This document shows positions 1-17,261 of a stretch of DNA of 34,671 nt, piece by piece. This DNA comes from an uncultured Oscillospiraceae bacterium. Its GTDB lineage: Bacteria > Bacillota > Clostridia > Oscillospirales > Oscillospiraceae. Under the pieces are notes generated by a model. The model was not told where the DNA came from and ran no database searches. It saw only the letters and a list, made by a program, of their open reading frames with translations. A program made the position numbers and the translations under genes. The first letter of the stretch is position 1. Every line of letters begins with the position of its first letter. Where the stretch lies: positions 1 to 34,671 of the forward strand of contig CALWVZ010000017.1 in the NCBI GenBank assembly GCA_944385125.1. Reading direction: 5' to 3'.

Positions 1-140
1 TTCTTTGCCCGGCTCACCATTATGGCGCCCATTATCATCATAACTGCCATCAGCATCACAAGGCCGATGAATACCACCACATAGCCCAGCAGGGTAACTA
101 TCCCCGCATCGGCAAAGGAAATGTTTATCAGATCGTCCAT
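1..140 (-). CDS. OadG-like sodium-pump decarboxylase gamma subunit (partial)
   Basis: Only the first 46 residues are in the window; the gene runs off the left edge. The translation starts MDDLINISFADAGIVTLLGY and continues as one strongly hydrophobic membrane segment rich in V, M, I and L, ending in a short basic stretch (SRAKK). A short N-terminus, a single membrane span and then a soluble tail is the layout of OadG/MmdD-type subunits, which anchor and assemble sodium-translocating biotin-dependent decarboxylases. It is the last visible gene of the long minus-strand catabolic series, which also encodes the carboxyltransferase and biotin carrier. The beta subunit that would pump sodium is not in the window and may lie just beyond the edge. 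The assignment is inferred from topology and neighbours because the diagnostic C-terminal part is missing. Confidence 0.6.
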   Translation of the reverse strand, partial: MDDLINISFADAGIVTLLGYVVVFIGLVMLMAVMMIMGAIMVSRAK

Positions 141-195
141 ATTTTTCTCCAATGTTGTAGAGGAATTTTACATGCGGCTCAATAACTGAGACGCT

Positions 196-1467
196 TCAAA
201 ATAAATTTCCGTTTTCATCAAAGCTCATGCATTCCGGCTCAGACAGGATCTCTATCTTTGGATTCTGCTCTGCCTCGGGCAGCAAGGCCTCGGATATCAT
301 AAGTTCTGAAACCTTAAGAGTGTTTTTGGCCCGGATGATCTTCGGATTGCTGCGGTCGCCGTCAACACAGAACTTTATTGAGGCCTGTATTGCTACCTTG
401 TCGCTCTCCAGTATCATTGGCATGGCAAACGAATGGATACTGAGGGCCGTTAAGGGATTGGCATAGGTAGCAGTAAAATCAATCTTGTCAAAGAACCTCT
501 TGGTCGCAATGTTCGCCAGCCCCATTCCATGGGCGTTCCCGTGGCTTTGCTCTGAGATATCCAGCACTGTGATTATAGTCTGCCTGGGGTCCGGCGGTAT
601 TCCCTCTGCCGGATAACGGGAGACTATATTGCAGTCCATGCCCGGGCCGGCAATATTCTTCCCCATTTCGTCAAGTATCAGCACATCATACTTTGGAAAA
701 TATATTTGGGGCATCAGCTGGAAGGCCCGCTTCAACAATTCCGGCTCTCTGGATAATATTTCCTCCGGGGCCAGGCAAACTATCTCGCTGGTCTCATCAT
801 AGGCATTTTCCAAAATACCTATTCCGAAGGCGACATTCATGTGTCTGTAAATATAGTCGGACATCTCCATAATATTTGCCGACATATTTCTCATGGAAAA
901 TGAATGGCACTGGTCGGCGCCCTTCTGTTTACCAACGCCTATCACCGTCATCTTAGCCAGTCCGCTCTCCACAGGGCCACGGAAAGAGGTATGGGGTTTG
1001 ATGCGGTTGATTATAACCAGGGCGTCCGCCGAGGCTGCATACTTGTCCACATTCACCGGGATGCCGTGGGCCTCGGTCCGGCCCAGCACCACGGTCTCCA
1101 TAGTTGCCCTTATGGGACAGCCGCAGGATTCCTCCGTAAGCCCCAGGCTTTTGAGCACAAGGACCTGGCCTTCTGCTGTAGCTCCGCCATGGCTGCCCAT
1201 AGCCGGGAAAATAAAGGGCTGTGCTCCCCGCTCCTTTATAAGGCTGATAAGCTCCCTGTACATAGGAACGCAGTTGGCTATGCCCCTTGAGCCAAGGGCC
1301 ACCGCAACGGTTTGTCCCGGCTTTATTCGCTCCAGATATCCCGACTCAAGGGTAACTCGCCTGAGTTGCGCAGCAGGGTCTGCTATCTTGTCTCCGGGAA
1401 ATTTTTGCCTGATGCGTGCCATTCTGGGTATCTCGTATCCGGCTACAAGCTGAGATAATACGCTCAT
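196..1467 (-). CDS. LarA-like nickel-dependent 2-hydroxyacid racemase/epimerase homologue
   Basis: This 423-residue protein is about the length of lactate racemase LarA (424) and has the DUF2088 N-terminal domain (GSRGI at 59-63, GSHGGAT at 91-97). LarA from Lactiplantibacillus uses His108 and His174 for catalysis, Lys184 to hold the nickel-pincer cofactor and His200 to bind nickel. Here H93, H159, K172 and H188 are natural counterparts: H93 to H159 is 66 residues and K172 to H188 is 16, both the same as in LarA, with three extra residues between H159 and K172. The ATG at 1467 is chosen over a longer frame because TTGGAG lies six bases upstream. The likely role is inverting the alpha carbon of a 2-hydroxyacid, fitting the Ldh2-type dehydrogenase nearby. 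The cofactor genes larB, larC and larE are not visible. The actual substrate is unknown. Confidence 0.75.
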   Translation of the reverse strand: MSVLSQLVAGYEIPRMARIRQKFPGDKIADPAAQLRRVTLESGYLERIKPGQTVAVALGSRGIANCVPMYRELISLIKERGAQPFIFPAMGSHGGATAEGQVLVLKSLGLTEESCGCPIRATMETVVLGRTEAHGIPVNVDKYAASADALVIINRIKPHTSFRGPVESGLAKMTVIGVGKQKGADQCHSFSMRNMSANIMEMSDYIYRHMNVAFGIGILENAYDETSEIVCLAPEEILSREPELLKRAFQLMPQIYFPKYDVLILDEMGKNIAGPGMDCNIVSRYPAEGIPPDPRQTIITVLDISEQSHGNAHGMGLANIATKRFFDKIDFTATYANPLTALSIHSFAMPMILESDKVAIQASIKFCVDGDRSNPKIIRAKNTLKVSELMISEALLPEAEQNPKIEILSEPECMSFDENGNLF

Positions 1468-1502
1468 GCTGATCTCCAAGTTGATTATCCGGGCCTGTGC
1501 CC

Positions 1503-1534
1503 AGCCGGGCAGCGGTATTCCCACCCGCCCGGCT
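1503..1534 (-). other. Intercistronic hairpin between the LeuA-like and LarA-like genes
   Basis: AGCCGGGC (1503-1510) and GCCCGGCT (1527-1534) are perfect 8-bp inverted arms with a 16-nt loop. They lie in the 90-bp gap between the two minus-strand genes. No T-run follows on either strand, so this looks like an RNA-processing or stability element rather than a terminator. Confidence 0.35.
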
Positions 1535-1557
1535 CAGGCCTGCCAGGCTTTTCTAAA

Positions 1558-2760
1558 TCAGTGTTTGCACTCTTCAACTATTTTCCTGAACTCATCCACA
1601 GTGAGCAGGCGTTTCTCTGCCGAGCCTTTTTCCTTGACCATTGTCAACATATTTGCCACCTGCTCGTCGCTGGCTTCCTCACCGATCTCATTGAGGAAAT
1701 ACTCTATTGAGGCCTTGCCGCTCTTTTTACCCAGAGCTATATCGCCTTTACGGTTGAATATCGCAGGGTTGGTAGCAAACATGGCCAGTGGCTTTTCCAC
1801 CACAAGGTTAACGCCTATTCCTGATTCTCTTGTATAGTTGCGAACTCCGGAGACTGGTTTGTTCACCGCAAAGTCCACCCCTGAGATCTTTGCCACCTCT
1901 GCGCAAAACTCCGGCAGCTTGGCAATGTTGTAGTGCTCGTTCACACCGTATAGTATCTTCAGGGAAACCATCAGCTCTTCCAGAGCTGCGTTGCCGGTCC
2001 TTTCACCCAAGCCGTTGAAGCAGGAGTGGACGCAGCTTGCGCCGGCGGCAATTCCCGCCAGCTCAGTAGCCACAGCCATGCCGAAATCGTTATGGGTATG
2101 TACCTCTATGGGCAGGCCGTTAGTGAGCTTCTTCATTTTGCGCACCAGATATGCCACAGCCTGGGGCGTGGCGCAGCCCATAGTGTCTACAACGCCGACA
2201 GAGTCGGGTACTGCATCCCTCATAAGCGCCCCCATCAGGTTTTCCAGGTCCTCGGCTCTGGCACGGGTGGTATCGTATGGGAAATAGCAGGCATAGAGGC
2301 CTTTTTCCTTTGCGTAGTTGATGCACTCTGCGCTCTTTTCATAGACCTTCTCCCAGGTCCAGTTGAACTGATATTTCAGCTTGGGATAGCCGATGGGTAC
2401 CTCGATGACCACACCGCTAGCCCCCAAGTCAGCAGCCATATCGATATCAGCCTTCATGGCCCGGGCAAAAGTAAATATCTTGCTCTTCAGGTTGCGTTTG
2501 GAGATCGCCTCTATTGCAGCCTGGTCCTGTTTTGATACAGCAGGCATGCCGGCTTCTATTCTCTCCACACCCAGCTCATTGAGCATCTCGGCAATTCTGA
2601 CCTTGTCGTCAATGCCGAATACAACGCCCGGAGTCTGTTCGCCGTCACGTAGAGTAGCGTCATGTATCTCTATCTTCCCGGCAAGCTGCATCTGTGCCTG
2701 TACTTCGGGCTCCTCATTATAGGGACTGGCCCACCATTCGTTTTCTTTGAAGTAACTCAT
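1558..2760 (-). CDS. LeuA/homocitrate-synthase-like (DRE-TIM metallolyase) enzyme
   Basis: This 400-residue protein belongs to the HMGL-like/DRE-TIM metallolyase superfamily, which makes or breaks a C-C bond between a 2-oxoacid and an acyl group. The family signature HDATLRDGEQ is at 33-42, the metal-binding HTHND at 221-225, and the synthase-type GLGERTGNA at 250-258. A GKKSG stretch in the C-terminal third resembles the LGKHSG motif of isopropylmalate, homocitrate and citramalate synthases. It lacks the long regulatory C-terminal domain of biosynthetic LeuA, and no leuBCD genes are nearby, so a catabolic role is likelier than leucine synthesis. It sits between the Ldh2-type dehydrogenase and the LarA-like protein, suggesting that it acts on the 2-oxoacid made by that dehydrogenase. 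Start ATG has GGAGG at good distance. Substrate and direction of reaction are unknown. Confidence 0.8.
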   Translation of the reverse strand: MSYFKENEWWASPYNEEPEVQAQMQLAGKIEIHDATLRDGEQTPGVVFGIDDKVRIAEMLNELGVERIEAGMPAVSKQDQAAIEAISKRNLKSKIFTFARAMKADIDMAADLGASGVVIEVPIGYPKLKYQFNWTWEKVYEKSAECINYAKEKGLYACYFPYDTTRARAEDLENLMGALMRDAVPDSVGVVDTMGCATPQAVAYLVRKMKKLTNGLPIEVHTHNDFGMAVATELAGIAAGASCVHSCFNGLGERTGNAALEELMVSLKILYGVNEHYNIAKLPEFCAEVAKISGVDFAVNKPVSGVRNYTRESGIGVNLVVEKPLAMFATNPAIFNRKGDIALGKKSGKASIEYFLNEIGEEASDEQVANMLTMVKEKGSAEKRLLTVDEFRKIVEECKH

Positions 2761-2825
2761 AATCGTCCTCCGTTTAAATTTATAATATGATTTTTTGCCC
2801 TTATCCTAAGACAAAGCCATGCAAA

Positions 2826-3890
2826 TCAATTACAAACAGTTTCGATCAGCTGTTCAAAGCTAGTACCCTGGGGGACAAGACCATTGAATGCGGCACGCTC
2901 TGCCAGCTCCTTGCTGAGATTTTCGGGGACCTCTATCCCCGTCTTCATATTCTTCTCCAGCTTTTTAAACTCTATTTCCCCGGGCATAAAAATTTCGTTG
3001 AATCCGGCAGCTTTTTTGCTGCCCTTCAGCATACGGATGTAGTCGTCGGCCTCTGCCTTGAACTGTTCTATATCTCTGAATTTTGAGATATCTATAAGGA
3101 TGCAGGCAAGGCCCGTATCCTCTATTCCTCCGGTATAGGGCACGCCTATGTTCCTGCCGTATTTGGCCCCGGCCAACAGAGCCGACAGCACATCCACGAT
3201 TACCGCAAGCCCGTATCCCTTGTATCCTGCCGCTGGCAGCAGGGCAAAGGATTTTGTTGGGTCTGTGCATGGATTTCCGTCCTTGTCCAGCGCCCATCCC
3301 TGGGGTATAGGAGTTCCTTCCCTGGCGGCAGCCTGGATCTTGCCGTTTGCCACAAGACTTGTGGCCATGTCCAATATAATGGGGTATTCCTCGCCTGAGG
3401 GGACCCCAACTATTATCGGGTTTGTGCCCAGCAGCTTTTCACAGCCTCCATAGGGGGCCATAACGCAAACTGTATTTGCTACAAATATGCCTATCATATC
3501 GTCCTTTGCGGCTCTCAGCGCATAGTAGCTGCCGCAGCCGATGTTGGTGGAGTGGTTTGCCGTTCCCACTGCCACCCCATACTTTTTGGCCTTTTCCACC
3601 AGCTGGGCGTACAGCCTGTTCATCGCAACTACCCCGGAGCCGTAGTCGGCATCCATCTTTACCGTTGCCCCCTGCTCGCCGGCGACCTTCATGTCTGCAT
3701 CGGCTTTGTAGACATGGTTGTTAAAATGCTTGATATAATTTGCAAATCTTGAGAGTCCGTGGGAATAAACGCCGGTAAAATCCGAGTGCGTCACAACTTC
3801 GCTCAGGCCGGCAGCATCTTCCTCATTCATGCCCACCGCAGCCAGCATAGCACGGCACAGCTTTATCTCCTGTTCATAGCTGATAGTCAC
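2826..3890 (-). CDS. Ldh2/malate-sulfolactate-ureidoglycolate dehydrogenase family NAD(P)-dependent enzyme
   Basis: This 354-residue protein is full length for the Ldh2 family, Rossmann-unrelated NAD(P)-dependent 2-hydroxyacid dehydrogenases that include L-malate, L-sulfolactate and ureidoglycolate dehydrogenases. Visible signatures are SHG at 43-45 (conserved His), the central NIGCGSYY and LGTNP segments, and GYKGYGLA in the C-terminal half. It starts with GTG at 3890, preceded by AGGAGG nine bases upstream. It is soluble and probably cytoplasmic. The gene lies 14 bp below mobA and 65 bp above the LeuA-like gene in the same orientation, so co-transcription is likely. The LarA-like racemase homologue two genes downstream would supply the right enantiomer of its hydroxyacid. 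Which hydroxyacid is used cannot be read from the sequence. Confidence 0.85.
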   Translation of the reverse strand: MTISYEQEIKLCRAMLAAVGMNEEDAAGLSEVVTHSDFTGVYSHGLSRFANYIKHFNNHVYKADADMKVAGEQGATVKMDADYGSGVVAMNRLYAQLVEKAKKYGVAVGTANHSTNIGCGSYYALRAAKDDMIGIFVANTVCVMAPYGGCEKLLGTNPIIVGVPSGEEYPIILDMATSLVANGKIQAAAREGTPIPQGWALDKDGNPCTDPTKSFALLPAAGYKGYGLAVIVDVLSALLAGAKYGRNIGVPYTGGIEDTGLACILIDISKFRDIEQFKAEADDYIRMLKGSKKAAGFNEIFMPGEIEFKKLEKNMKTGIEVPENLSKELAERAAFNGLVPQGTSFEQLIETVCN

Positions 3891-3904
3891 TTTTGAAGGC
3901 CTCC

Positions 3905-4519
3905 TTACTTCTGTAAATCTGTCATGCCCTTCCGGGCCAAAGGTGATCTTATCTTCTCAAAGTCTGCCTTGAAATTCATGTTGTAGAAAGCATGCCGGCA
4001 GTTTTTACTGCTGAGCCATTGGCTGCATTCCAGCAGCTTTGCGCCGGGATAGTCCAGCAGGCGGAGCATACTGAACTTCCCTTTCTCCAACAGCTCTGTC
4101 ACCATCGGGAGCACCTCTCTGCGATACATTGCAAACAGCGGCTCAACCTTTCCTTCTGCGCAGGGCAGGCACAGGGGACATCCCTCCCCCTCCGCAAGTA
4201 TGTGTTCCGCCAGTTCCACGCTGAAAAATGGCATATCGCAGGCCATGATGAACAGGGTATCGTTCCTTGCACAGCTCAGAGCCGCATGAAGTCCGCCCAT
4301 TGGCCCTGCGTCGCAGTATATATCCCCTATCTCCCGTATTCCCGGAATAGAAAATTTGGGGCTGCCACTACCGCATATGAGGATCTCATCAAAAAGGGAG
4401 GCGCACTTGTGCACCATCTCTTCAGTGACGGTAGCGCCGTTTATCTTTACAAGGGCCTTGTCTTCCCCAAAGCGTCTGCTCTTTCCTCCGGCTAGGATCG
4501 CCAGCGTCGCTCTTTCCAT
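3905..4519 (-). CDS. mobA: Molybdenum cofactor guanylyltransferase (MobA-like)
   Basis: This 204-residue nucleotidyltransferase has the MobA N-terminal loop LAGGKSRRFGEDKAL (9-23), which binds GTP, and an ACDMPF segment near the middle that supplies the metal-binding Asp. MobA adds GMP to molybdopterin to make the bis-MGD cofactor of the DMSO-reductase superfamily. Its place inside the catabolic series, about 2.6 kb downstream of the Mo/W-pterin enzyme, indicates that this enzyme carries a guanylylated cofactor. The gene begins 16 bp after the biotin-carrier stop. Other cofactor genes in the window are the THEP1-type NTPase and MoeA on the divergent side. The C-terminal part (about 165-204) is less typical. 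MobA function is well supported; CTP-using relatives (MocA) are the main alternative. Confidence 0.85.
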   Translation of the reverse strand: MERATLAILAGGKSRRFGEDKALVKINGATVTEEMVHKCASLFDEILICGSGSPKFSIPGIREIGDIYCDAGPMGGLHAALSCARNDTLFIMACDMPFFSVELAEHILAEGEGCPLCLPCAEGKVEPLFAMYRREVLPMVTELLEKGKFSMLRLLDYPGAKLLECSQWLSSKNCRHAFYNMNFKADFEKIRSPLARKGMTDLQK

Positions 4520-4535
4520 ATTTTGTACAGCGCTC

Positions 4536-4826
4536 TTAGCCTGTCACCATAACCAGGAAGTCGTCCTTGCCAACGGTCTCTCCCTCCGGGACCATGACCG
4601 CTATCTTTCCGTCGCAGGGAGCCAATATCTCCTCCTGGGTCTTTACAGCCTCCAGCACCATGATGCATTCCCCGGCCTTCACCCGCTCGCCTTGCTTTTT
4701 CTCTACGCTGAGGACCCGGCCTTCCATGGGGGAGCGCACCTTGTTTCTCTCTGCCCTTACAGGCGAGGTTTCCTCCACCTCGCAGTCATAGGCTTTTCCA
4801 TCTATCTTTACTGTAAAGTTTCTCAT
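4536..4826 (-). CDS. Biotin carboxyl carrier protein with atypical AVKT biotinylation motif
   Basis: This 96-residue protein is a biotinyl/lipoyl-type swinging domain preceded by about 25 residues. The fold signatures RSPMEGRVLS (31-40) and GERVKAGECIMVLEA (46-60) are clear. The expected biotin acceptor is K62. The usual tetrapeptide around it is AMKM; here it reads A60-V61-K62-T63, so both flanking methionines are replaced. As part of a biotin-dependent decarboxylase or carboxylase it would carry CO2 between the carboxyltransferase encoded just upstream and a partner not in this window. The ATG at 4826 has GGAGG eight bases upstream and lies 41 bp inside the end of the preceding small gene. 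There is no proline/alanine-rich linker like that of many OadA or MmdC proteins. Confidence 0.85.
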   Translation of the reverse strand: MRNFTVKIDGKAYDCEVEETSPVRAERNKVRSPMEGRVLSVEKKQGERVKAGECIMVLEAVKTQEEILAPCDGKIAVMVPEGETVGKDDFLVMVTG

Positions 4827-5046
4827 TTCTGTTGCCTCCGTCGGTGTTTAAATATACTGGTCTTTCCTCCAGCTCCTCTTCCCGCAGCTCCCGATAACTT
4901 ACCAGGCGGAAACTCTCCGGGTCCAGTCCCATGTACTTGGCCAGGGCGGCTTTAAGGATCTTTTCCGTCTCTGCGGAAGCCTGAGCCGAAGCTGAGCCAA
5001 GGCCTTTCCCAGAGTCTTTCTTGCCTTTGACAGATCTGCTGTTCAT
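4786..5046 (-). CDS. Small soluble protein resembling the C-terminal tail of OadG subunits
   Basis: This 86-residue hydrophilic protein has no membrane segment or signal peptide. The first 25 residues are low-complexity (K, S, G, A). After this comes ETEKILKAALAKYMGLDP and a basic-acidic stretch. That segment resembles the C-terminal tail of OadG-type subunits, where a helix is followed by a YLG-S/D-P-like turn. It is encoded between the carboxyltransferase and the biotin carrier, the position of the small assembly subunits in Mmd/Oad/Gcd operons. I therefore infer a small decarboxylase subunit without its own membrane anchor. The ATG at 5046, with GGGAGG upstream, is preferred over an upstream TTG. 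The end overlaps the biotin-carrier gene by 41 bp. The function is inferred, not shown. Confidence 0.6.
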   Translation of the reverse strand: MNSRSVKGKKDSGKGLGSASAQASAETEKILKAALAKYMGLDPESFRLVSYRELREEELEERPVYLNTDGGNRNEKLYSKDRWKSL

Positions 5047-5066
5047 TGAACTCTGGCCTCCCTCTC

Positions 5067-6590
5067 TCAAAGCGGAATATTGCCGTGGAATCTTTCAGTC
5101 CGGCTGCGCTTTTTGCTCTGCAGCATTTCAAAGGCAGCGATGATCATTTTCCTTGTGTCCGCCGGGTCAATTACATCGTCCACCAGGCCTCTTGAGGCAG
5201 CAATATAGGGCGTTGCAAACTTTTCCTTGTATTCTTCTATTCTCTTTTTCCGCTCCTCGCCATCCACATCACGGAAAATTATATTGGCGGCCCCGTCGGG
5301 GCCCATAACGGCAATTTCTGCATTGGGCCAGGCATAGACAATATCTGCTCCCATATCCTTGCAGCACATCGCCAGATATGCACCGCCGTATGCCTTTCTG
5401 ACTATAAGGGTCAGCTTTGGCACCACAGCCTCACTGTATGCATACAGCATCTTTGCACCGTGGCGTATGATGCCGTTATACTCCTGATTCACGCCGGGCA
5501 GAAAGCCGGGAACGTCAACAAGAGTCAGCAGAGGAATACCAAAGGCGTCACAGAAACGTATAAACCTGGCCGCTTTATCAGAGGCATCCACATCAAGACA
5601 GCCTGCCAGCTTGGACGGCTGGTTTGCGATGACTCCCACGGTCCTGCCGTGGATATGGGTAAAGCAGGTTATCATGTTGGTGGCAAATCTTTCCATTACG
5701 TCCAGGTACTCGCCGTTGTCGGAAATGCCTTTTATGATGTCATACATGTTGTATGCCTTATTGGGGTTATCCGGAAGAATGTCCCTGAACTCAAGGTTAA
5801 GGCGGTTGGAATCATCGTTGAGCGGACCGGCGGGCGGCTCTTCCAGATAGTTTGACGGCAGGTATGACAGAAGTCTGCGTATATGCTCTATGCATTGCTG
5901 GTCGGTGTCATCCATGAAGGAGGCCACTCCGCTCTTGGTATTGTGGGACTTGGCACCTCCCAGCAGCTCAGCGGATATCTGCTCGCCGGTCACTGTCTTG
6001 ATTACGTCCGGGCCGGTTATAAACATTTTACTTGTCTTGTCCACCATGAAAATGAAGTCGGTCAGCGCCGGAGAATAAACTGCACCGCCGGCGCAGGGGC
6101 CCATTATGGCAGTGATCTGGGGTATTACCCCGGAGGCTCGGGTATTGCGGAAGAAGATCTTTCCATAGCCTGCCAGTCCTTCTATGCCTTCCTGTATCCG
6201 GGCTCCGCCGGAGTCGTTCATGCCCACCACAGGAGCTCCTGTTTTGCAGGCCGTGTCCAGGATCTTGCAGATTTTGTTTGCCTGCATCTCTCCCAGAGAG
6301 CCGCCCAGCACGGTAAAGTCCTGCGCATAGGCAAACACTATCCTTCCGTCGATACGCCCATAGCCGCCAACAACGCCGTCTCCGTCATAGAGCGTCTCCT
6401 CCATGCCGAAATGATGGCAGCGGTGGGTAATAAAGGGGTCGATCTCAACAAAGCTGTTGGCATCGAACAGCAGCTCCAGCCGCTCCCTTGCAGTGAGCTT
6501 CCCGGAGGCATGCTGCTTGAATATCTTCATTTTGCCGCCGCCCTCCAGGAGCTTTTCTTTCTTATACTGAAGTTCTTCCAATTTATCCAT
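5067..6590 (-). CDS. Biotin-dependent carboxyltransferase (MmdA/PccB-like alpha subunit)
   Basis: This roughly 507-residue protein is a complete acyl-CoA carboxyltransferase of the PccB/MmdA type, with two crotonase-like halves. Typical segments are KLTARERLELLFD near the N-terminus, MNDSGGARIQEG and GPCAGGAVYSPA in the first half (an oxyanion hole), and VDVPGFLPG, RKAYGGAYLAM and AEIAVMGPDGA in the second half. MmdA moves carboxylate from a beta-carboxylated acyl-CoA to biotin, and PccB does the reverse. With a biotin carrier, a small subunit and an OadG-like membrane protein in the same series, and no biotin carboxylase in the window, the decarboxylating direction is favoured. The start at 6590 is chosen because GGAG lies 10 bases upstream; the longer frame would begin inside the ferredoxin stop region. 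The acyl-CoA substrate (methylmalonyl-, glutaconyl- or another) is undetermined. Confidence 0.85.
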   Translation of the reverse strand: MDKLEELQYKKEKLLEGGGKMKIFKQHASGKLTARERLELLFDANSFVEIDPFITHRCHHFGMEETLYDGDGVVGGYGRIDGRIVFAYAQDFTVLGGSLGEMQANKICKILDTACKTGAPVVGMNDSGGARIQEGIEGLAGYGKIFFRNTRASGVIPQITAIMGPCAGGAVYSPALTDFIFMVDKTSKMFITGPDVIKTVTGEQISAELLGGAKSHNTKSGVASFMDDTDQQCIEHIRRLLSYLPSNYLEEPPAGPLNDDSNRLNLEFRDILPDNPNKAYNMYDIIKGISDNGEYLDVMERFATNMITCFTHIHGRTVGVIANQPSKLAGCLDVDASDKAARFIRFCDAFGIPLLTLVDVPGFLPGVNQEYNGIIRHGAKMLYAYSEAVVPKLTLIVRKAYGGAYLAMCCKDMGADIVYAWPNAEIAVMGPDGAANIIFRDVDGEERKKRIEEYKEKFATPYIAASRGLVDDVIDPADTRKMIIAAFEMLQSKKRSRTERFHGNIPL

Positions 6591-6613
6591 TTGCTGCGTT
6601 CTCCACTTTTGAA

Positions 6614-7156
6614 TCATTCATAAAGTTTTGTCATCTTGCTGGACATATATACGGTATGCCCGACGGACCACTTGTTCCGTCCCTGTGTTCTGCTTTCAAG
6701 TTCTGCCCCCGTGCAAAGAGTGATAGCCTGGCCCAGGCAGTGCTGCACACAAGCCGGCTCCATTCCTCTTCCCCTGCGTTCCACACACAGGTCGCACTTG
6801 ACAGCTTTTACAGACTCTGCCATCTCGGCTACTGTGACCGCACCGTATGGACATGCCGCTTCACAGGAGCCGCAGCCTATGCATTCCTCCCCAGAGATCT
6901 GAACAAAGCCGTTATCGTCCCGGGTGATGGCCCCGGCGGGGCATGCCTTCATACATTCCGCTTCGCTGCAATGAAGGCACACCGTAGGCACGAAGTCGCA
7001 CTGAAGCTTGCCGGAGCCGTCCCGGCGCTCATGTCGCAGCGGTTCAATGCAGCTTTGCACTCCTACCGGCAGCCCATGTTCCATTTTGCAGGCTGTCTGG
7101 CACACCTTGCAGCCGTAGCATCTGTCCAGGTCTATGAGCAAATACAAATTTTCCAT
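6614..7156 (-). CDS. Four-cluster ferredoxin subunit (DmsB/HycB-like) of the Mo/W enzyme
   Basis: This 180-residue protein has sixteen cysteines in four [4Fe-4S] motifs: CYGCKVCQTAC near residue 14, CLHCSEAECMKACP near 60, CIGCGSCEAACP near 92, and a last set CDLC...C..HC near 120-140. This is the arrangement of the electron-transfer subunit of DMSO-reductase-superfamily enzymes. It has no signal peptide or membrane segment, so it should act in the cytoplasm. It begins 15 bp after the stop of the catalytic gene, so the two are almost certainly a translationally linked pair. An electron-transfer partner suggests that the pair performs redox chemistry, or at least needs reductive activation, unlike single-subunit acetylene hydratase. 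The partner that accepts or donates electrons is not visible. Confidence 0.9.
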   Translation of the reverse strand: MENLYLLIDLDRCYGCKVCQTACKMEHGLPVGVQSCIEPLRHERRDGSGKLQCDFVPTVCLHCSEAECMKACPAGAITRDDNGFVQISGEECIGCGSCEAACPYGAVTVAEMAESVKAVKCDLCVERRGRGMEPACVQHCLGQAITLCTGAELESRTQGRNKWSVGHTVYMSSKMTKLYE

Positions 7157-7171
7157 TTCTTCGACCCCCTA

Positions 7172-9415: not shown

Positions 9416-9487
9416 GCTTTCCTCCTTGCCGAATGGTTTTATGTTCTTGGACTGTGCATATCACAGTGCAGGTATGTTCACAATTAT

Positions 9488-10426: not shown

Positions 10427-10444
10427 TTTAAACACTCCCGCTAT

Positions 10445-10485: not shown

Positions 10486-10497
10486 TTTCCGACACTT

Positions 10498-11382: not shown

Positions 11383-11413
11383 ATAAAATTCCTCCGTCTA
11401 TATTGTTTTCGCC

Positions 11414-13330
11414 TTATGCTTCTGCCGGAGTCTGGGGATTCTCCTTTTTTGCACGGATCACGTTGATGGCTGCCATTGCAGCGATTCCGGCCAGGCCTAT
11501 CACATCCGTGACCAGGCCTTCAAGCACCATGAAGAAGCCGGCAATAATAAATATTACCCTCTCTACAGGTTTGACTGTTGTTCTGAAATATCCAACTATA
11601 CCCAGGGCTATTCCAAACACACCCACAACGCTGGCAACAATGGTGAGCAGTATAGCGGAGAAGGCACCTTCCATGAGCAGGCTGGGACCGTACACGAACA
11701 TATAAGGAAGCACAAAGCTTACAAGCCCGTATTTGACGGCCAGCCAGCCCACCCTGTTTAGTGTGCCGCCTGCAATTCCTGCCGCCACATAGGAAGCCAG
11801 GGCAACAGGGGGGGTAATGGTGGAGATGCAGCCGAAGAAGAACACGAACATATGGGCCGTGAGAAGAGGCAGCCCCATCTTGGTCAGTGCGGGAACCACA
11901 ACAGAGGCCAGCACCAGATATGCAGCGGTGGTAGGCAGGCCCATACCAAGGATAATGGATACTATCATGGTGAGGAACAGAGCCACAAAGACCTTGCCGC
12001 CGGAGATAGTAACTATCAGGGTAGAGAGCTTGGAGCCCAGTCCGGACAGAGAGAGGATGCCCACGATTATGCCGGAAGCGGCACAGGCAACAGCCATTGT
12101 GGAAGTGTCCTTGGAGCCGCTGACTATGGCGTGGATTATCTTGTTCACCGTGTCCTTCACAAAGGGTTCCTTACGAATAATCTTTGCAACGATGTAAACC
12201 AATATAAGGGAAATGGCGGAGTAGTATGCAGACTTAATAGGCGAATAGCCGATGAGCAGCATCACCACAAGCAGGATAACGGGGACCAGATTGTACCAGC
12301 CTTCCCTGAGTATATCTTTCATATATCTGTACTCGCCGCTGCCGGCCTGGTCGATGTTATCCTTCTTTGCTTCATAGTGAACAACAAAGGTAAGAGACAG
12401 GTAGTACAGAACAGCGGGAATGATTGCCGCTTCCATAATCCTGAGGTAGGGATATCCTGTCATCTCGGCCATTATAAACGCCGCAGCGCCCATGACAGGT
12501 GGCATGATCTGTCCGCCGGTAGCGGCCACAGCTGAGATCGCACCGGCTTTATCGGTATCGTATCCCCTCTGTTTCATCATGGGGATGGTAAGAGTGCCGG
12601 AGATGGCTACGTTGCCTGCTGCGGAGCCGGAAATCATTCCGACCAGCGCCGCAAACACGATGGAGGTTTTTGCAGTGGCTGCGGAGAGCTTCTTTGTCAC
12701 TACGGAGGAGAACTCAAACAGGAACTTTGCCGCACCGAACTCGCTGAGGAAAGCTCCATATATGCAGAACATGATAATGTACTGAGCGGATACGCTTATA
12801 GGAATGCCGTAAAGTCCGTCGCTGGTTATAAAGAGGAAGGTGAACACCCGCTTGAAGGTGTATCCCCTGCCCATGAGTATTCCGGGGAGGTAGGTGCATA
12901 TAAACGGATAGATAAGGAATACTACGCATATCACAGACAGCACGGCGCCCACCCGGCGTCTGGTAGCCTCCAGCACCAAGAGCACCATAATCAGTCCGAA
13001 AACTGCATCCATCATCGTGCTCACACCGCCGCTGTTGGAGATATCCTCCCAACGGGTCAGCATATACACGGAGCACGCTACAGACAGCGCAGCATATATC
13101 ACCTTCAGGGTCTTGTTAAGGGGGGTCCTCTTCTCTCCCTTGGTGAAGCTGAGAAAGCAGATGACCATCATGGCCATCAAATGCACGCAGCGTATAGTGG
13201 TTGAAGAAAGCAGCAGAAGGCCGGCCACATTGAGTATGTGCATCAGGCCAATCGCAAAAGCAACAACAAACACTATTTTGTCTGTGATCTTATCGAAGCT
13301 GCTCTCTTTTTTTACAATATTTTCACTCAT
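11414..13330 (-). CDS. TRAP transporter fused permease (4TM-12TM), TAXI type
   Basis: This 638-residue polytopic membrane protein fuses the small DctQ-like and large DctM-like TRAP subunits, the usual form in TAXI-type systems. The first 130 or so residues hold about four helices. The remainder has the DctM pattern, including GSAAGNVAISGTLTIPMM, ATGGQIMPPVMGAAAFIMAE and GMGLPTTAAYLV, the conserved loops of the elevator domain. Transport is driven by a sodium or proton gradient, with substrate delivered by the TAXI receptor encoded just upstream. If the biotin-dependent decarboxylase pumps sodium, it would power this importer. The start has GGAGAC upstream. A 127-bp gap with a terminator-like hairpin separates it from the receptor gene. 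Confidence 0.92.
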   Translation of the reverse strand: MSENIVKKESSFDKITDKIVFVVAFAIGLMHILNVAGLLLLSSTTIRCVHLMAMMVICFLSFTKGEKRTPLNKTLKVIYAALSVACSVYMLTRWEDISNSGGVSTMMDAVFGLIMVLLVLEATRRRVGAVLSVICVVFLIYPFICTYLPGILMGRGYTFKRVFTFLFITSDGLYGIPISVSAQYIIMFCIYGAFLSEFGAAKFLFEFSSVVTKKLSAATAKTSIVFAALVGMISGSAAGNVAISGTLTIPMMKQRGYDTDKAGAISAVAATGGQIMPPVMGAAAFIMAEMTGYPYLRIMEAAIIPAVLYYLSLTFVVHYEAKKDNIDQAGSGEYRYMKDILREGWYNLVPVILLVVMLLIGYSPIKSAYYSAISLILVYIVAKIIRKEPFVKDTVNKIIHAIVSGSKDTSTMAVACAASGIIVGILSLSGLGSKLSTLIVTISGGKVFVALFLTMIVSIILGMGLPTTAAYLVLASVVVPALTKMGLPLLTAHMFVFFFGCISTITPPVALASYVAAGIAGGTLNRVGWLAVKYGLVSFVLPYMFVYGPSLLMEGAFSAILLTIVASVVGVFGIALGIVGYFRTTVKPVERVIFIIAGFFMVLEGLVTDVIGLAGIAAMAAINVIRAKKENPQTPAEA

Positions 13331-13363
13331 TGTTGTCTCCTGTCGAAAATCGGTGTATCAGAA

Positions 13364-13388
13364 AAGGCGGCGAATATCTCGCCGCCTT
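13364..13388 (-). terminator. Attenuating hairpin between TAXI receptor and TRAP permease
   Basis: AAGGCGGCGA (13364-13373) and TCGCCGCCTT (13379-13388) form a perfect 10-bp stem with a 5-nt loop. On the minus strand the stem is followed by a short T-rich stretch (TTTTC). This fits a partial terminator letting the receptor be made in excess over the permease, or a stem protecting the receptor message. Confidence 0.6.
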
Positions 13389-13457
13389 CTCCGTCTGTAC
13401 AATTTGAGTTTAAATAATATGCAGCGAATTATTTAAGTTGGGGCTTGGGCTCCTATC

Positions 13458-14498
13458 TCAGCCCACTTCGTATCCATGCTCCTGGAAATACTTGGCCGCA
13501 CCGGGGTGCCACTCAATACTCATGGAGCTGGCATTTTCCATGGAGAGGTCTCGGGCATTGGCGTTGGCTGCCTGGAACTCCTCAATGTTGTCAAAAATAG
13601 CCTTAGTCACTGCATATACCACATCATCATCAATGCCGGGGCGGACCACCAGGACGTTGGGAATGCCTATGAGGTAGCAGTCCTCTTCGCAGTTGTAATA
13701 ATCCTTGGTTACCAGAGTCTTGCTGTAGTAGGGATAATCTTCAATGAACTGGGTCCAGATTTCCTCATCTATGGGGATGAGCATGATATCCTTAGTGGCA
13801 GAAGCCTCCAGAACGGCGGAGTTGGGGTAGCCGCCCAGAGCGATAGCTGCATCCACATTGCCGTCGGACAGCTGAGTCAGGCCGTCGGTGTAGGGCAGGT
13901 AGGAAGCCACGATATCATCAATGGTCATGTCGTAGTAGGGGAACAGCTGGTTGAGAACAGGCAGGGTGCCGCCGCCGGCAGGGCCAACAGCAACTCTCTT
14001 GCCCTTAAGGTCGGCAATGCTTTCAATGCCGCTGCCCTCAAGAGCCACGATGTGGAAAACGGAGGGGTAAAGTCTTCCCATGCCATACATCTCTATCTGG
14101 GTGCCTTCAAAAGCATCCTCGCCATTGATGGCATAGACAGCCACGTTTTCATTGGTTATAGCAAAATCGCAGCTTCCGTCAGCCAGCAGGCGGGGATTTT
14201 CCGTTGCGCCGCCGGTCACTTCAGGAACCATGTTCAGGTTCGTGTAGGCTCCAACAAGGTTTGCGATCTCCTGACCAAAGGGGTAGAAAGCTCCGCCGAT
14301 GGAGGCAGTGCCTATATTGTAGGAACCGCTAACATCGGGCATAGCGCCATCCTCTGTGGTTTCGGCCTCTGCGGCGGGGGCTTCATCAGCAGCAGCCTCA
14401 GTGGCTTCGGGCTCGGCAGCCGGGGCTTCGCTCTGACCGCAAGCGGCCATTGCGAATACCATGAGGAATACCAAGCACAATGCGACTAATTTTTTCAT
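13458..14498 (-). CDS. TAXI family TRAP transporter solute-binding lipoprotein
   Basis: This 346-residue secreted lipoprotein has a basic N-terminus, a hydrophobic core and the lipobox AMAAC with the modified Cys at 20. An Ala/Glu/Thr-rich linker runs to about residue 50. The mature part has the TAXI hallmarks NIGTASIGGAFYPFGQEIANLV and KGKRVAVGPAGGGT, and a C-terminal VSMEWHPGA-like motif (MSIEWHPGAAKYF). TAXI receptors bind small anionic organic molecules and pass them to the fused TRAP permease. The ATG at 14498 with AAGGAATGAGG upstream is chosen over an upstream TTG. It is the first gene of the long minus-strand catabolic series and has its own leader. The ligand cannot be told from sequence. 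Confidence 0.92.
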   Translation of the reverse strand: MKKLVALCLVFLMVFAMAACGQSEAPAAEPEATEAAADEAPAAEAETTEDGAMPDVSGSYNIGTASIGGAFYPFGQEIANLVGAYTNLNMVPEVTGGATENPRLLADGSCDFAITNENVAVYAINGEDAFEGTQIEMYGMGRLYPSVFHIVALEGSGIESIADLKGKRVAVGPAGGGTLPVLNQLFPYYDMTIDDIVASYLPYTDGLTQLSDGNVDAAIALGGYPNSAVLEASATKDIMLIPIDEEIWTQFIEDYPYYSKTLVTKDYYNCEEDCYLIGIPNVLVVRPGIDDDVVYAVTKAIFDNIEEFQAANANARDLSMENASSMSIEWHPGAAKYFQEHGYEVG

Positions 14499-14535
14499 AT
14501 CCTCATTCCTTTCCAAAATGTATAGGTATTCGATT

Positions 14536-14557
14536 TCAAATATCTTCTGATATTTGA
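14536..14557. promoter_or_regulatory. Perfect 9-bp inverted repeat in the TAXI leader
   Basis: TCAAATATC (14536-14544) and GATATTTGA (14549-14557) are perfect inverted arms with a 4-nt spacer. They lie about 40 bp upstream of the receptor start and downstream of the proposed promoter. This could be an operator for a dimeric regulator or a small leader hairpin. Confidence 0.5.
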
Positions 14558-14623
14558 TTTGATTTTATTCTAACGGTATCTCAAGAAATATTATTGTATT
14601 TAACTGCACATAAATAAAATAAT

Positions 14624-14652
14624 ATTATAGAAAAATAATGCTATTGTTAAAA
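14624..14652 (-). promoter_or_regulatory. Candidate promoter of the catabolic operon
   Basis: Reading the minus strand there is a consensus -10 TATAAT (14624-14629), with a weak AT-rich -35 element TTTTAA 17 bp upstream (14647-14652). A poor -35 would fit dependence on an activator such as the adjacent AraC-type protein. Confidence 0.45.
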
Positions 14653-14690
14653 AAGCAATTATCCCCAAAATGTGTGACCTGTGAAGGCAT

Positions 14691-14746
14691 AAAAAAGAAC
14701 AGAGCAGAAATATTCAACAATACTCCGCATCTGTTCTGTTTAAAAA
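14691..14746 (-). terminator. Rho-independent terminator after the AraC-cupin unit
   Basis: On the minus strand, AACAGAACAGATGC pairs with GCTCTGTTCT (8 bp AGAACAGA/TCTGTTCT plus two pairs after a bulge) and is followed directly by TTTTTT. It lies 22 bp after the cupin stop, separating the regulator unit from the transport/catabolic operon. Confidence 0.7.
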
Positions 14747-14768
14747 GACAACAAATTGTACAATTATG

Positions 14769-15164
14769 CTATTCTGCCTGTTCCGCTTCCCGCAGCCTTT
14801 CCACGGCTCTGCGGTAATCCTCCGCTCTGTCTGGCCGGGTAGGTGTCGCCACGTCCATCATAAGGCAGGGCTCTCCCTCCTCGTGGACATAGATAAAGTG
14901 GGATACACCTGCCGGGATCACTATCCAGGCCCCCTCTTCCATAGCATAGGGCTTACCGTCCACATAGTAATCGCAGCGCCCCTTAAGGCAGACAGACATC
15001 TGTTCATTTGGGTGGCTGTGGGGTCTGAGTGCGTGTCCCATGGTGTATTCTCCAATCTCATAGCTTGCCAGTTTTGAGCCCATTGCAAAAACTATCCTTC
15101 TAACTCCTTCTCTTATCTCCACCCACTGCATTTGATTCCAGTTACCGCTTTCAATTTTTGACAT
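14769..15164 (-). CDS. Small cupin-domain protein
   Basis: This 131-residue single-domain cupin has motif 1 with H49-S-H51 and possible ligand E54 or Q55, and motif 2 with PAGVSH (H89), so the usual metal-binding set looks intact. Small cupins of this kind act as isomerases, dioxygenases or sugar/ligand-binding proteins; oxygen use is unlikely in this anaerobe. The gene starts 17 bp below the AraC-type regulator in the same unit, which suggests either an accessory sensor role or a catabolic step on the same compound. The ATG at 15164 with GAGAGG eight bases upstream is preferred over the GTG at 15173. The C-terminal 25 residues are charged and probably helical. Confidence 0.8.
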   Translation of the reverse strand: MSKIESGNWNQMQWVEIREGVRRIVFAMGSKLASYEIGEYTMGHALRPHSHPNEQMSVCLKGRCDYYVDGKPYAMEEGAWIVIPAGVSHFIYVHEEGEPCLMMDVATPTRPDRAEDYRRAVERLREAEQAE

Positions 15165-15181
15165 GTACCGCACCTCTCTTA

Positions 15182-16135
15182 TTATTTTACCGTCTGCCTG
15201 TAATGCAAAGGCGTAGTGTTTTCAAATTTTTTGAATGATTTGATGAAATGCGAGCTGTCGCCAAATCCCGCATCAAACCCTATCTCGGCAATGCTTTTAT
15301 CGGTGGTAGATAGCTGCTGTTTTGCATATGAGATGCGCAGCTTCAATATATAATGCGGCAGGCTTTCTCTGGTCTCCTTGGCAAACTGCCGGCTGAAATA
15401 GCTTGGGCTGATATGGCACAGGTCCGCAAGATATTGGATGGAGATCTTTTCTCTGAAATGTACTGCTATATAATCGAAAGCGGGAAACAGAAGGCTCACA
15501 TCCCCATAGGAGCCTCTTGCAGTCTCCGTCCCTTGCCGAGCCGTTTTCTCGTCTGGCCAGTGTTCTTTTGGGCTCTCCGGGCTCTCCGGCTTAAACGCAT
15601 CCGCCTTCATAGATTCCGAGATAGCATATCTATTTATATTCTCAAGCATTTCCACTATTTTTCTGAACTTTTCTGTTGAGACAGGGGTCATGCCGTGTTT
15701 TTTGCTTATCAGGTTTTTTGATTCTCTGGGCCTGGTTTCCCCCTGGGAGAAGGGATATATGGGCTCCACTTTTTCAAAGTCTGCATCCCCTTCTGCACAT
15801 CGGGCGCAAACCACGCTGAAGCCCAGATAATTGTCGCCGGCGAATAAAGGGACGGCTGCATTGAGCAGTCCCATATGGCATTTATATATATAAGTTGCTT
15901 CTCTGGTAAACGCCTCATAGCCGCCCAAAGCCCTGCATCTGAAGCACATGTCGTTGAGCACGGAAAATTCCATGACCGCCGAGCAAAATCCACAGGGATT
16001 GCTGTTGGTCAGGACCGGCTTGCCTTTGGAATCGCAGACGATTATATAGGCTCCCGTCACGTCAGTGATGGAATCCTGCATCTTCTGCCAATTATCCACA
16101 TTTATCAAGTCCCTTATATTCTTTGACACAATCAC
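15182..16135 (-). CDS. AraC-family regulator with PocR-like sensor domain
   Basis: This 317-residue protein has an N-terminal domain (about 5-165) that resembles the PocR ligand-sensing domain, with clustered cysteines (NPCGFCSAV, CFRC, YKCHMG, CARC) that may bind metal or sense redox state. A charged linker follows (about 165-205). The C-terminal AraC DNA-binding domain has both helix-turn-helix parts, SIQYLADLCHISPSYFSRQFAKE and the signature IAEIGFDAGFGDSSHFIKSFKK. It starts with GTG at 16135, preceded by GAGGG. It is divergent from the hydrolase/moeA unit and upstream of the catabolic operon, so it probably activates both, in response to the pathway substrate or an intermediate. Repeats in the intergenic region are candidate binding sites. 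Confidence 0.88.
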   Translation of the reverse strand: MIVSKNIRDLINVDNWQKMQDSITDVTGAYIIVCDSKGKPVLTNSNPCGFCSAVMEFSVLNDMCFRCRALGGYEAFTREATYIYKCHMGLLNAAVPLFAGDNYLGFSVVCARCAEGDADFEKVEPIYPFSQGETRPRESKNLISKKHGMTPVSTEKFRKIVEMLENINRYAISESMKADAFKPESPESPKEHWPDEKTARQGTETARGSYGDVSLLFPAFDYIAVHFREKISIQYLADLCHISPSYFSRQFAKETRESLPHYILKLRISYAKQQLSTTDKSIAEIGFDAGFGDSSHFIKSFKKFENTTPLHYRQTVK

Positions 16136-16224
16136 AACTATGGTCCCTCGCTTTTAAAAAACAGGCCTTGGCTTTCTATAAAAAGCCCTTTCTTGTAAGT
16201 CTTGCTCATATAGATATTATAATA

Positions 16225-16297
16225 TTTGTGCAAAAAAAGCAACAGCAATATTATCTTTTTGCACTGTAGTAATATAAATTGCCATTTTTTGTACTAT
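16225..16297. promoter_or_regulatory. Candidate AraC-type operator array in the divergent region
   Basis: TTTTTGCACTGT (16256-16267) and TTTTTGTACTAT (16286-16297) are 10/12-identical direct repeats exactly 30 bp apart. An inverted copy (GTGCAAAAA, 16228-16236) is a perfect 9-bp mirror of TTTTTGCAC. Copies on one DNA face upstream of a promoter are typical of AraC-family activation, and the inverted copy lies beside the regulator's own promoter. Confidence 0.55.
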
Positions 16298-16324
16298 CGC
16301 TTACAAAGTCTGCGTAAAAATCCA

Positions 16325-16353
16325 TTGAAAATGATCCAGTTCTTATCTATATT
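16325..16353 (+). promoter_or_regulatory. Promoter of the hydrolase-NTPase-moeA unit
   Basis: TTGAAA (16325-16330), a 17-bp spacer and TATATT (16348-16353) form a good sigma-A promoter on the plus strand, 77 bp upstream of the hydrolase start. The nearer direct repeat ends 27 bp upstream of the -35 element, a suitable place for an activator. Confidence 0.6.
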
Positions 16354-16430
16354 TACAATCAGGTAAGAGTCGAAAAAATCAAAGGCTATTATGTATCCAA
16401 ATCCTATTGTCACAGAAAGGAAAAATTATT

Positions 16431-17261
16431 ATGAAAAGAGAATGGCCCCAGGGCAAGAATATTGCCGTCACATTCAGCGTTATGTTTGAAGGTTGGGAGG
16501 ATACCTCCGCCCCTGGCATCGGCCCTATGGGCAATCCGCTCAAACCCGGATACCTTGACACAGCCAACCAGGGCTGGGCAGAGTATGCGGCCAATGACGG
16601 TTTGCCCCGTCTGCTGAGGATATTCAAGGAAGAGGGGCTGGTAGGAAGCATTTTTGCCAGCGGCATCATGGCTGAGCGCCACCCCCAGCTGCTGGCCCAA
16701 GCAGCTTCTCTGGGCCACGAGATAGGCATTCACTCCTATGCTCAAAATATCCTCCCTGTCTATCTTGATGAGGCCACAGAGCGGGAGCAGATGAAGCGCT
16801 GCATAGACCTTATAACTGAGGTCAGCGGCAAACATCCTGTAGGCTATGGCAGCCCCCGCTGCACCGGCAGTCTCATCACCAATCAGCTGCTGGTAGAAAA
16901 CGGCATCAAATACACCTGGGACTGGATGGGTTCCGATATGCCCATGATCCAGAAGACCCACAAGGGCGATCTCTGCCTCATGCCTTTTACCATGAATGTA
17001 AACGACATGCCCATCTATGTGCGTTACGGCAATCAGGCTGACTTTTATTACAAAGCCCTGGTGAGTGAATTTGAGGGCTGGTATGCAAATCATCCCGAGG
17101 AGAAGGCTGTGTTCTGGATAACCGTACATTCCCATGTCTTTGGTCGTCCCTTTGGCGCCGTACAGTACCAGAAGGCCATGCAGTACATCAAGTCCCTTCC
17201 CTACGTGTGGATAGCCCAGCCTTACGAGATAGCGTCCACTGTGATTGACGTAGAATACTGA
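16431..17261 (+). CDS. PuuE/polysaccharide-deacetylase-like amide hydrolase
   Basis: This 276-residue protein has the NodB-type (polysaccharide deacetylase) barrel; the C-terminal motif WITVHSHVFGRP is typical of the PuuE allantoinase/cyclic imidase/HpPgdA branch. In zinc-dependent members the ligands are an Asp, a His and a second His four residues on. Here the matching residues appear to be E20 (in FSVMFEGWED), H101 and Q105 (HSYAQ), so two of three ligands are changed, as in metal-independent PuuE, which has Glu and Trp there. I infer cleavage of a cyclic amide or imide. The ATG at 16431, preceded by AGAAAGGA, is used; an in-frame TTG at 16407 is less likely. It is first in a plus-strand unit with the NTPase and moeA and has a good promoter. 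Confidence 0.8.
   Translation: MKREWPQGKNIAVTFSVMFEGWEDTSAPGIGPMGNPLKPGYLDTANQGWAEYAANDGLPRLLRIFKEEGLVGSIFASGIMAERHPQLLAQAASLGHEIGIHSYAQNILPVYLDEATEREQMKRCIDLITEVSGKHPVGYGSPRCTGSLITNQLLVENGIKYTWDWMGSDMPMIQKTHKGDLCLMPFTMNVNDMPIYVRYGNQADFYYKALVSEFEGWYANHPEEKAVFWITVHSHVFGRPFGAVQYQKAMQYIKSLPYVWIAQPYEIASTVIDVEY

Follow-up and report, generated by a model that had tools for sequence, protein, structure and literature searches.

A putatively acquired catabolic island joining nickel, molybdenum and biotin enzymes with a LeuA-like protein in an uncultured Oscillospiraceae bacterium

Introduction

We analysed a 34,671-nucleotide stretch of DNA (the window) from an uncultured Oscillospiraceae bacterium (assembly GCA_944385125.1). 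The window is the complete contig C17 (CALWVZ010000017.1) of a 2.02 Mb genome that is distributed over 86 contigs and is 75.9% complete. Its left part carries genes for a TAXI-TRAP importer, a metal hydrolase-like protein of the DUF6282 family, a Mo/W oxidoreductase, a biotin-dependent decarboxylase, an Ldh2-type dehydrogenase, a LeuA-like protein and a LarA-type isomerase (LarA-22), most of them in one minus-strand series. With slightly better than even confidence, which applies jointly to both parts of the explanation, we interpret positions 1–19140 as the greater part of a catabolic island that was acquired horizontally and lies between an ABC-transporter operon and rny, and its genes as a putative mobile operon that would degrade a carboxylic acid via 2-hydroxy and 2-oxo acid intermediates, the LeuA-like enzyme serving as a lyase. 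Family scans of the window proteins recovered every enzyme type that an earlier note on this sequence had named, at the positions it had assigned.

Results

The gene block occupies a site that is empty in congeners

To the right of 19.19 kb, the window continues with genes for an ABC transporter, a methyltransferase, an FmdE-like protein, PyrBI, a B3/4-domain protein, a reductase, NrdD and NrdG. The congener G419 has the same gene order, and so do the congeners G406 and G393 over the length of their contigs; the methyltransferase and FmdE-like pair upstream of pyrBI (24460–25754) is also present in all three. In these genomes the ABC operon is followed directly by rny (seen as open reading frames in G419 and G406 and by alignment in G393), and a clpC-like gene lies beyond rny in G419 and G406. 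In the genome under study, a rny-like gene followed by a clpC-like gene is located on a different contig (C77), where it adjoins a hairpin and the terminal part of an OAD_beta gene. We named rny and clpC by reading their sequences rather than through a family scan.

An exact 39-bp duplication covers the hairpin region, with one copy at the window border and one on C77 (Table 1). In a 15 kb stretch of G406 the hairpin repeat occurs once, at the empty site, with matching flanks on each side. No exact copy of the whole hairpin core was detected in the stretches of G419 and G393, the latter of which holds its first half. The guanine-cytosine (GC) content is 51.7% in 1–19140 versus 59.4% to the right. 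Furthermore, the Mo enzyme (E 1e-110) was found in one of 60 relatives, which include 36 other genomes of the genus, and the carboxyltransferase (E 1e-100) in one of 36 relatives, including 22 others of the genus; many of these sampled genomes are incomplete, and in both cases the single hit was the genome under study.

Because of the empty site, the duplicated hairpin, the GC contrast and the confinement of the Mo enzyme and the carboxyltransferase to this genome, gain as one block is the simplest reading, and loss from all of the sampled congeners is a less likely possibility. The grouping of the genes is not due to chance, since they form a discrete insertion whose two flanks adjoin each other in congeners. 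No integrase was present among the gene families found in the assembled part of the island; further genes may lie in the missing piece. Mis-binning of the contig was considered and rejected: the block from 19.2 to 34 kb matches congeners, and NrdD is 97–98% identical in G393, G406 and G419, so that the contig is correctly binned.

A smaller core recurs at related loci

The earlier note had proposed a search for conserved neighbourhoods across Clostridia. This search recovered a smaller core but not the full gene set, for which we found no recurrence among the genomes searched. The conserved core at related loci consists of a TAXI-TRAP importer, a Mo or W oxidoreductase, a metal hydrolase and the LeuA-like protein. 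The genomes G287 and G447 show the order cyclase, TAXI binding protein, TAXI permease, Mo enzyme, ferredoxin subunit, GntR and LeuA-like protein, with MobA near. In G447 (contig C16, loci L052 and L053) the LeuA-like and TAXI permease genes are each split into two open reading frames, which reflects either decay or an assembly error.

A profile of the LeuA-like protein matched 14 places in 9 of 321 genomes of the class (E 1e-95), 12 of them outside the window and G287. Together with G287 and G447 these 12 give 14 non-window loci, for which neighbours within 10 kb were counted at E 1e-15. A TAXI permease was near the LeuA-like gene at nine of the 14 loci, a Mo or W enzyme at seven (two Mo enzymes and five of the aldehyde:ferredoxin oxidoreductase, AOR, type), a hydrolase at seven (DUF6282 at two, cyclase at four, amidohydrolase-2 at one), a 2-hydroxyacid dehydrogenase at seven and a LarA protein at three. 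The queries for TAXI, DUF6282, MmdA, PuuE and LarA-22 were taken from the window, and their counts are free of self-matching. Pfam confirmed AOR at four loci, while the fifth (G056c) was identified by tblastn at 33% only; dehydrogenases were Pfam-confirmed at two LeuA-like loci and at one more in G157b. In the AOR-linked TAXI loci of the same class (G022, G056 and G134), TAXI-TRAP and LeuA-like genes occur together at four loci, three of which have a core-type hydrolase. Here AOR replaces the Mo enzyme, and there is no carboxyltransferase or LarA-22.

A similar cluster in three genomes (L107, L108 and L109) combines 2-hydroxyacid dehydrogenase, LarA and LeuA-like genes. In L107 an acetokinase, a galactarate/altronate-dehydratase-type protein and LarA were confirmed by Pfam, and a SAF-like small protein and an ABC transporter of the branched-chain amino acid type were read by eye. 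This cluster is possibly another uncharacterised 2-hydroxyacid pathway.

The LeuA-like protein lacks two residues of Claisen-condensing synthases

The LeuA-like protein did not reach the NCBIfam cut-off of any of the 25 families listed (best TIGR02090, 338.4 versus 484.75 bits), and its best solved relative is homocitrate synthase (6ktq). It shares with 2-isopropylmalate and homocitrate synthases the fold family, the metal ligands and the Arg-Asp-Gln site: R38, D39, Q42, H221 and H223, comprising the metal ligands Asp, His and His and the substrate Arg, are kept, and the LRDGEQ motif is intact. It differs from them in its catabolic neighbours and in the second subdomain, where alignment to the solved synthases places Gly at the second His of the HESGIH-type motifs and, depending on the alignment, Met or Ala at the following Tyr. 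Both His and Tyr are missing in all 14 aligned rows (the window, G287 and the 12 other loci) and in the separately examined piece from G447. The motifs RESGIG and PL(A/S)MFA are common to eight proteins (window, G287, G447, G111, G022a, G056a, G157a and G132). According to the consulted part of PMC11532901, the active site of the related MAM synthase is lined by Arg89, Gln93 and the metal ligands Asp90, His288 and His290, the His in question is most likely the general base, the Tyr is a stacking residue, H388A is inactive and H388N retains low activity; the mapping of positions to MAM synthase is our own and follows motif spacing.

As the metal site is conserved in the clade while the His and Tyr for acetyl-CoA condensation are absent, the protein is probably no isopropylmalate or homocitrate synthase, and C-C synthesis, one of the two activities that the earlier note had allowed, appears unlikely. 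We infer instead that it may be a lyase or aldolase. Structure prediction yielded no usable model (predicted local distance difference test, pLDDT, 37.7). LeuA-like matches in ten plasmid records were dismissed as ordinary: seven of them carry annotations, as synthases or nifV, and nothing relevant lay in the single neighbourhood that was opened.

The Mo enzyme resembles acetylene hydratase with a changed active site

Acetylene hydratase (2e7z) is the closest solved protein to the Mo enzyme, which places it near the Cys-ligated enzymes of the DMSO-reductase family. The Cys aligned with the metal ligand of acetylene hydratase is kept, whereas the Asp beside the Fe-S Cys is replaced by His in the window and in G287 and by Asn in G447; we presume that this Asp and this Cys have the roles of active-site residue and metal ligand in acetylene hydratase. 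A further difference is the DmsB-like ferredoxin subunit encoded alongside. The score against the formate dehydrogenase alpha model TIGR01591 remained below its cut-off (315.8 versus 666.25 bits). Since reading the sequences by eye revealed no obvious signal peptide in either the alpha or the ferredoxin subunit, the enzyme is likely cytoplasmic and served by a soluble electron carrier. The presence of AOR at sister loci without the Mo enzyme indirectly suggests a low-potential aldehyde/acid redox reaction.

Mo enzymes with at least 59% identity were found only in G287 (63%) and G447 (59%), with an overall range of 59–64%, the searches returning 2 of 391 genomes (own genome counted), 2 of 32 and the same 2 of 33. 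In a sample of the phylum, 17 of 398 genomes passed E 1e-110, those besides the own genome being at most 39% identical. Three plasmid records matched at ~31% identity and were set aside; the one opened has a different context.

LarA-22 is a predicted 2-hydroxyacid isomerase that does not mark the core

NCBIfam assigns the window protein to group 22 of the LarA superfamily of nickel-pincer nucleotide (NPN)-dependent hydroxyacid racemases and epimerases, above the curated cut-off (Table 1). Its residues R80, H112, H178, K191 and H207 are invariant in 27 aligned LarA-type proteins (the window protein, 23 of 30 LarA-22 loci and three other LarA proteins). By spacing and by alignment to LarAH6-like proteins they match R75, H108, H174, K184 and H200 of LarA, which the consulted text of PMC7583248 gives as cofactor residues (R, K and H) and two catalytic His. 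For NPN biosynthesis, a search confined to LarC located larC (PF01969) on contig C40 of the same genome (G000:C40). Both observations favour the 2-hydroxyacid racemase or isomerase that the earlier note had proposed.

LarA-22 homologues occur in 25 of 391 genomes of the class, including the own genome, with 24 above the cut-off. LeuA-like, Mo enzyme, carboxyltransferase and DUF6282 genes were beside LarA-22 in none of the 30 non-window loci, for which the inspected flanks spanned 10 kb in L002, from an uncultured Oscillibacter genome, and ~1.5 kb or less in the rest. LarA-22 was therefore rejected as a general anchor of the pathway. The neighbours inspected were sugar-acid or hydroxyacid genes (L002, L003, L005, L006 and L007). 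In G132, a LeuA-like/TAXI locus is accompanied, on another contig, by LarA-22 adjoining an AEC-like transporter with 23% identity (L014 and L104). Sequence comparison revealed no convincing solved relative, and group 22 is not named in the main text of the LarA papers searched.

The operon probably ends in a sodium-pumping decarboxylase

The window encodes the alpha subunit, the biotin carrier and the first 46 residues of a delta subunit of a decarboxylase related to the methylmalonyl-CoA, glutaconyl-CoA and oxaloacetate Na+ pumps, and C77 begins, inside the second hairpin, with the 38-residue end of a beta subunit (OAD_beta C-terminus) past an assembly gap. Because the delta subunit lies at the cut end and the beta-subunit end on C77, the operon probably ends in a Na+-pump decarboxylase, which agrees with the sodium-coupled biotin decarboxylase of the earlier note. 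In contrast to the known pumps, the genes lie within a Mo/Ni catabolic operon, and the carboxyltransferase stays below the cut-off of the MmdA model TIGR01117. It is of the MmdA/PccB type, and its sequence does not reveal the substrate. The biotin carrier has EAVKT at the biotinylation motif, which is usually EAMKM; the Lys is kept.

Another contig of the genome, C58, shares its first 77 bases with C77, both within an OAD_beta gene, and near-identical OAD_beta C-termini occupy positions 1–117 of both contigs (L064, G000:C58; L065, G000:C77). Since the genome has two such near-identical beta ends, the assembler probably broke there, and a second Na+-pump locus probably lies elsewhere, upstream of C58. 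The assignment of C77 as the presumed far side of the island rests on synteny and the hairpin and not on a read that spans the gap.

DUF6282 and PuuE-like proteins

DUF6282 was detected in 45 plasmid records; in the six that were opened, it lies near TAXI or TRAP permeases or other catabolic genes. On plasmids of two haloarchaea (L078 and L085) it stands beside a gene of the FAD-linked oxidase type and an amidohydrolase gene. Sequence searches gave no convincing solved relative (best E 0.1). A weak TIM-barrel-like model (pLDDT 50.9, predicted template-modelling score 0.57) matched aldolases, Rubisco, epimerases and PTE-like lactonases in the PDB with template-modelling scores of ~0.4–0.5, which is too weak for use. 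We found no paper on DUF6282 in the open-access literature. The PuuE-like protein scored below the cut-off of the PuuE allantoinase model TIGR03212.

Organisation of the gene series

From the PocR-type regulator to the LarA-like gene, 15 minus-strand genes follow each other with gaps of −41 to +252 bp, and a sixteenth, for the OadG/MmdD-type delta subunit, runs off the contig end, in line with the almost unbroken series described earlier (Table 1). The spacing makes co-transcription of this series likely. Beyond the genes listed in the earlier note, we identified MobA, the AEC transporter, an NTPase_1-family protein, MoeA and a small open reading frame that could encode an accessory subunit. 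The catabolic block extends on the right to 19140 through the NTPase-like and MoeA genes, while its left side leaves the contig. A consensus scan compared with shuffled sequences detected 35 promoter-like sites (17.3 expected) and 33 terminator-like sites (19.3 expected) in and between the genes of the series; it settles nothing about their transcription.

Table 1 Features of the putative catabolic island, with position in the window, strand and supporting evidence. Scores are in bits.
Feature	Position	Strand	Evidence
Start of delta subunit, OadG/MmdD-type, of Na+-pumping decarboxylase, cut by contig end	1–140	-	46-residue translation; PF04277 OAD_gamma 28.5, cut-off 27
NPN 2-hydroxyacid isomerase, LarA group 22	196–1524	-	NF052515 501.8, cut-off 400
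LeuA-like DRE-TIM metallolyase without Claisen His and Tyr; probable lyase or aldolase	1558–2760	-	HMGL-like domain 213.9
Ldh2-type NAD(P)-dependent 2-hydroxyacid dehydrogenase	2826–3890	-	PF02615 357.4; best NCBIfam L-sulfolactate dehydrogenase 264.4, below cut-off 500
MobA-like molybdenum cofactor guanylyltransferase	3905–4519	-	PF12804; MobA models best, below their cut-offs
Biotin carrier protein (gamma subunit)	4536–4826	-	PF00364 46.7
Small open reading frame, 94 aa, overlapping carboxyltransferase and biotin carrier genes	4786–5070	-	No family match
Carboxyltransferase (alpha) subunit, MmdA/PccB type	5067–6617	-	TIGR01117 833.6, cut-off 998.8; PDB 1vrg E=1e-208
DmsB-like ferredoxin subunit of Mo enzyme	6614–7156	-	PF13247 and other 4Fe-4S families; DmsB model best, below cut-off
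DMSO-reductase-family Mo/W oxidoreductase	7172–9415	-	PF00384, PF01568, PF04879; 2e7z (acetylene hydratase) E=3.8e-91
AEC-type transporter	9488–10495	-	PF03547
DUF6282 metal-dependent hydrolase-like protein ('HxH amidohydrolase')	10498–11382	-	PF19799 202.9; putative function from HxH motif and context
TAXI-TRAP fused permease	11414–13330	-	TIGR02123 590.5, above cut-off
TAXI solute-binding protein	13458–14516	-	TIGR02122 247.7, above cut-off
Small cupin protein	14769–15173	-	PF07883
AraC-type regulator with PocR sensory domain	15182–16135	-	PF10114, PF12833
PuuE-like polysaccharide-deacetylase-fold hydrolase	16407–17261	+	TIGR03212 116.1, below cut-off 424.6
NTPase_1-family P-loop protein; another adjoins MobA in G287	17324–17848	+	PF03266
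MoeA-like molybdotransferase	17823–19058	+	PF03453, PF00994
Hairpin, right border of island, core of 39-bp exact direct duplication	19141–19176	.	Second copy on contig C77, 222–257

Discussion

The literature searches are in line with the claim of the earlier note that the locus matches no described pathway: the gene set was not found described in the open-access literature (titles and starts of abstracts), subscription papers being outside the scope. Likewise, what we take to be the hallmark genes of nicotinate, phloroglucinol, glutaconate and malonate fermentation did not surface in the general family scans, and no dedicated search for them was made. The reaction order offered in the earlier note was a guess. 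In the model that we favour, the PocR-type regulator would turn on the import of a carboxylic acid by TAXI-TRAP, and DUF6282 would hydrolyse the imported acid by opening a lactone, cyclic amide or diketone. LarA-22 and Ldh2 would then convert a 2-hydroxyacid to a 2-oxoacid, which the LeuA-like metallolyase may cleave in a step of the retro-aldol type. The cytoplasmic Mo enzyme with its ferredoxin subunit would carry out the low-potential redox step that is performed by aldehyde:ferredoxin oxidoreductases at sister loci, and the biotin enzyme would decarboxylate the resulting acyl-CoA and pump Na+. Uptake and the Na+ pump are the best-supported parts of this model; the putative order of reactions and the substrate are unproven.

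Several points weigh against the model. MmdA-like, PuuE-like and LarA-22 genes were each found within 10 kb at none of the 14 other LeuA-like loci, although short contigs make some absences uninformative (G111 5.4 kb, G157a 8.5 kb, G157b 7.1 kb). The PuuE-like protein was thus rejected as a core member, the co-occurrence of the whole set implied by the earlier note did not hold up, in agreement with the LarA-22 loci, and the data do not establish one pathway in which every gene takes part. The three hydrolase families at sister loci suggest different substrates for the module. Several queries came from the counted loci themselves (cyclase and GntR from G287, AOR from G056a and G134a, dehydrogenase and LarA from G083, amidohydrolase-2 from G134b), and self-matches account for one of four cyclases, two of five AORs, one of seven dehydrogenases, one of three LarA proteins and the only amidohydrolase-2 locus. 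The Mo enzyme was the query that led to G287 and G447, so that among the 12 loci to which the LeuA-like protein led, only five have a W-type enzyme. The nine control stretches (272 kb), which held TAXI once, AOR not at all, a hydrolase once, a hydroxyacid dehydrogenase once, a Mo enzyme twice and LarA-22 once, give a rough count and were not random, three of the nine having been chosen through Mo-enzyme or LarA matches. In addition, the gap from the contig end to C77 is unassembled and C58 also starts in the same beta-subunit sequence, and some terminator-like sites of the consensus scan fall inside the series, including one that separates the genes for the TAXI binding protein and permease.

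An alternative that we regard as unlikely is that the operon is a modular salvage island in which separate short functions (transport, hydrolysis and Mo-dependent redox; isomerisation and oxidation of hydroxyacids; decarboxylation of malonyl- or methylmalonyl-CoA) were acquired together without forming one linear pathway. This would explain why LarA-22, MmdA-like and PuuE-like genes do not accompany the core elsewhere, and LarA-22 homologues indeed adjoin DHDPS-type and HpcH aldolases and a 2-hydroxyacid dehydrogenase, as seen in the neighbours of four loci only. The tight spacing with overlaps, the single direction and the transfer as one block between hairpins speak against it, as does the association of LarA with a LeuA-like gene and a 2-hydroxyacid dehydrogenase at three other loci.

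The remaining alternatives concern single enzymes. The Mo enzyme could belong to the acetylene-hydratase branch and act on an aromatic or unsaturated acid as a hydratase or reductive dehydroxylase, the other genes serving ring opening and a clearing route similar to beta-oxidation. Acetylene hydratase is its best solved relative, metal hydrolases of the ring-opening type (cyclase, DUF6282) accompany the core, and PMC7028382, on Mo-dependent catechol dehydroxylases, names acetylene hydratase 12 times. However, the Asp is exchanged in the window, G287 and G447, and the Pfam-confirmed AORs at four sister loci without the Mo enzyme fit aldehyde/acid redox better; we consider this alternative improbable as well. 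It is more doubtful still that the LeuA-like protein condenses an acyl-CoA with a 2-oxoacid to a 2-alkylmalate, a different residue taking over as base, so that the chain would be lengthened and not cleaved. The intact metal ligands and LRDGEQ motif would allow this, and some activity remained in H388N of MAM synthase, but the window protein has Gly for the His and Met or Ala for the Tyr, the genomic context is catabolic, and H388A was inactive (both mutants from the consulted part of PMC11532901).

Returning to the model of an acquired operon with a LeuA-like lyase, we tentatively propose, at somewhat less than even confidence, that the clade of LeuA-like proteins represents a new branch of the DRE-TIM metallolyases with a catabolic role. 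Its members would cleave 2-oxoacids as lyases, and the product would go on to an oxidoreductase with tungsten (AOR) or molybdenum. Together these enzymes would form an anaerobic route not yet described, which may spread between bacteria as islands and gain energy from reduced ferredoxin and, here, a sodium pump. The TAXI binding protein, the putative LeuA-like lyase and the Mo enzyme are the candidates for finding the substrate. This provides a testable route in which a family annotated as biosynthetic and 'leucine synthase-like' would be catabolic, and in which nickel, molybdenum or tungsten, and biotin enzymes would be joined in one transferable operon.

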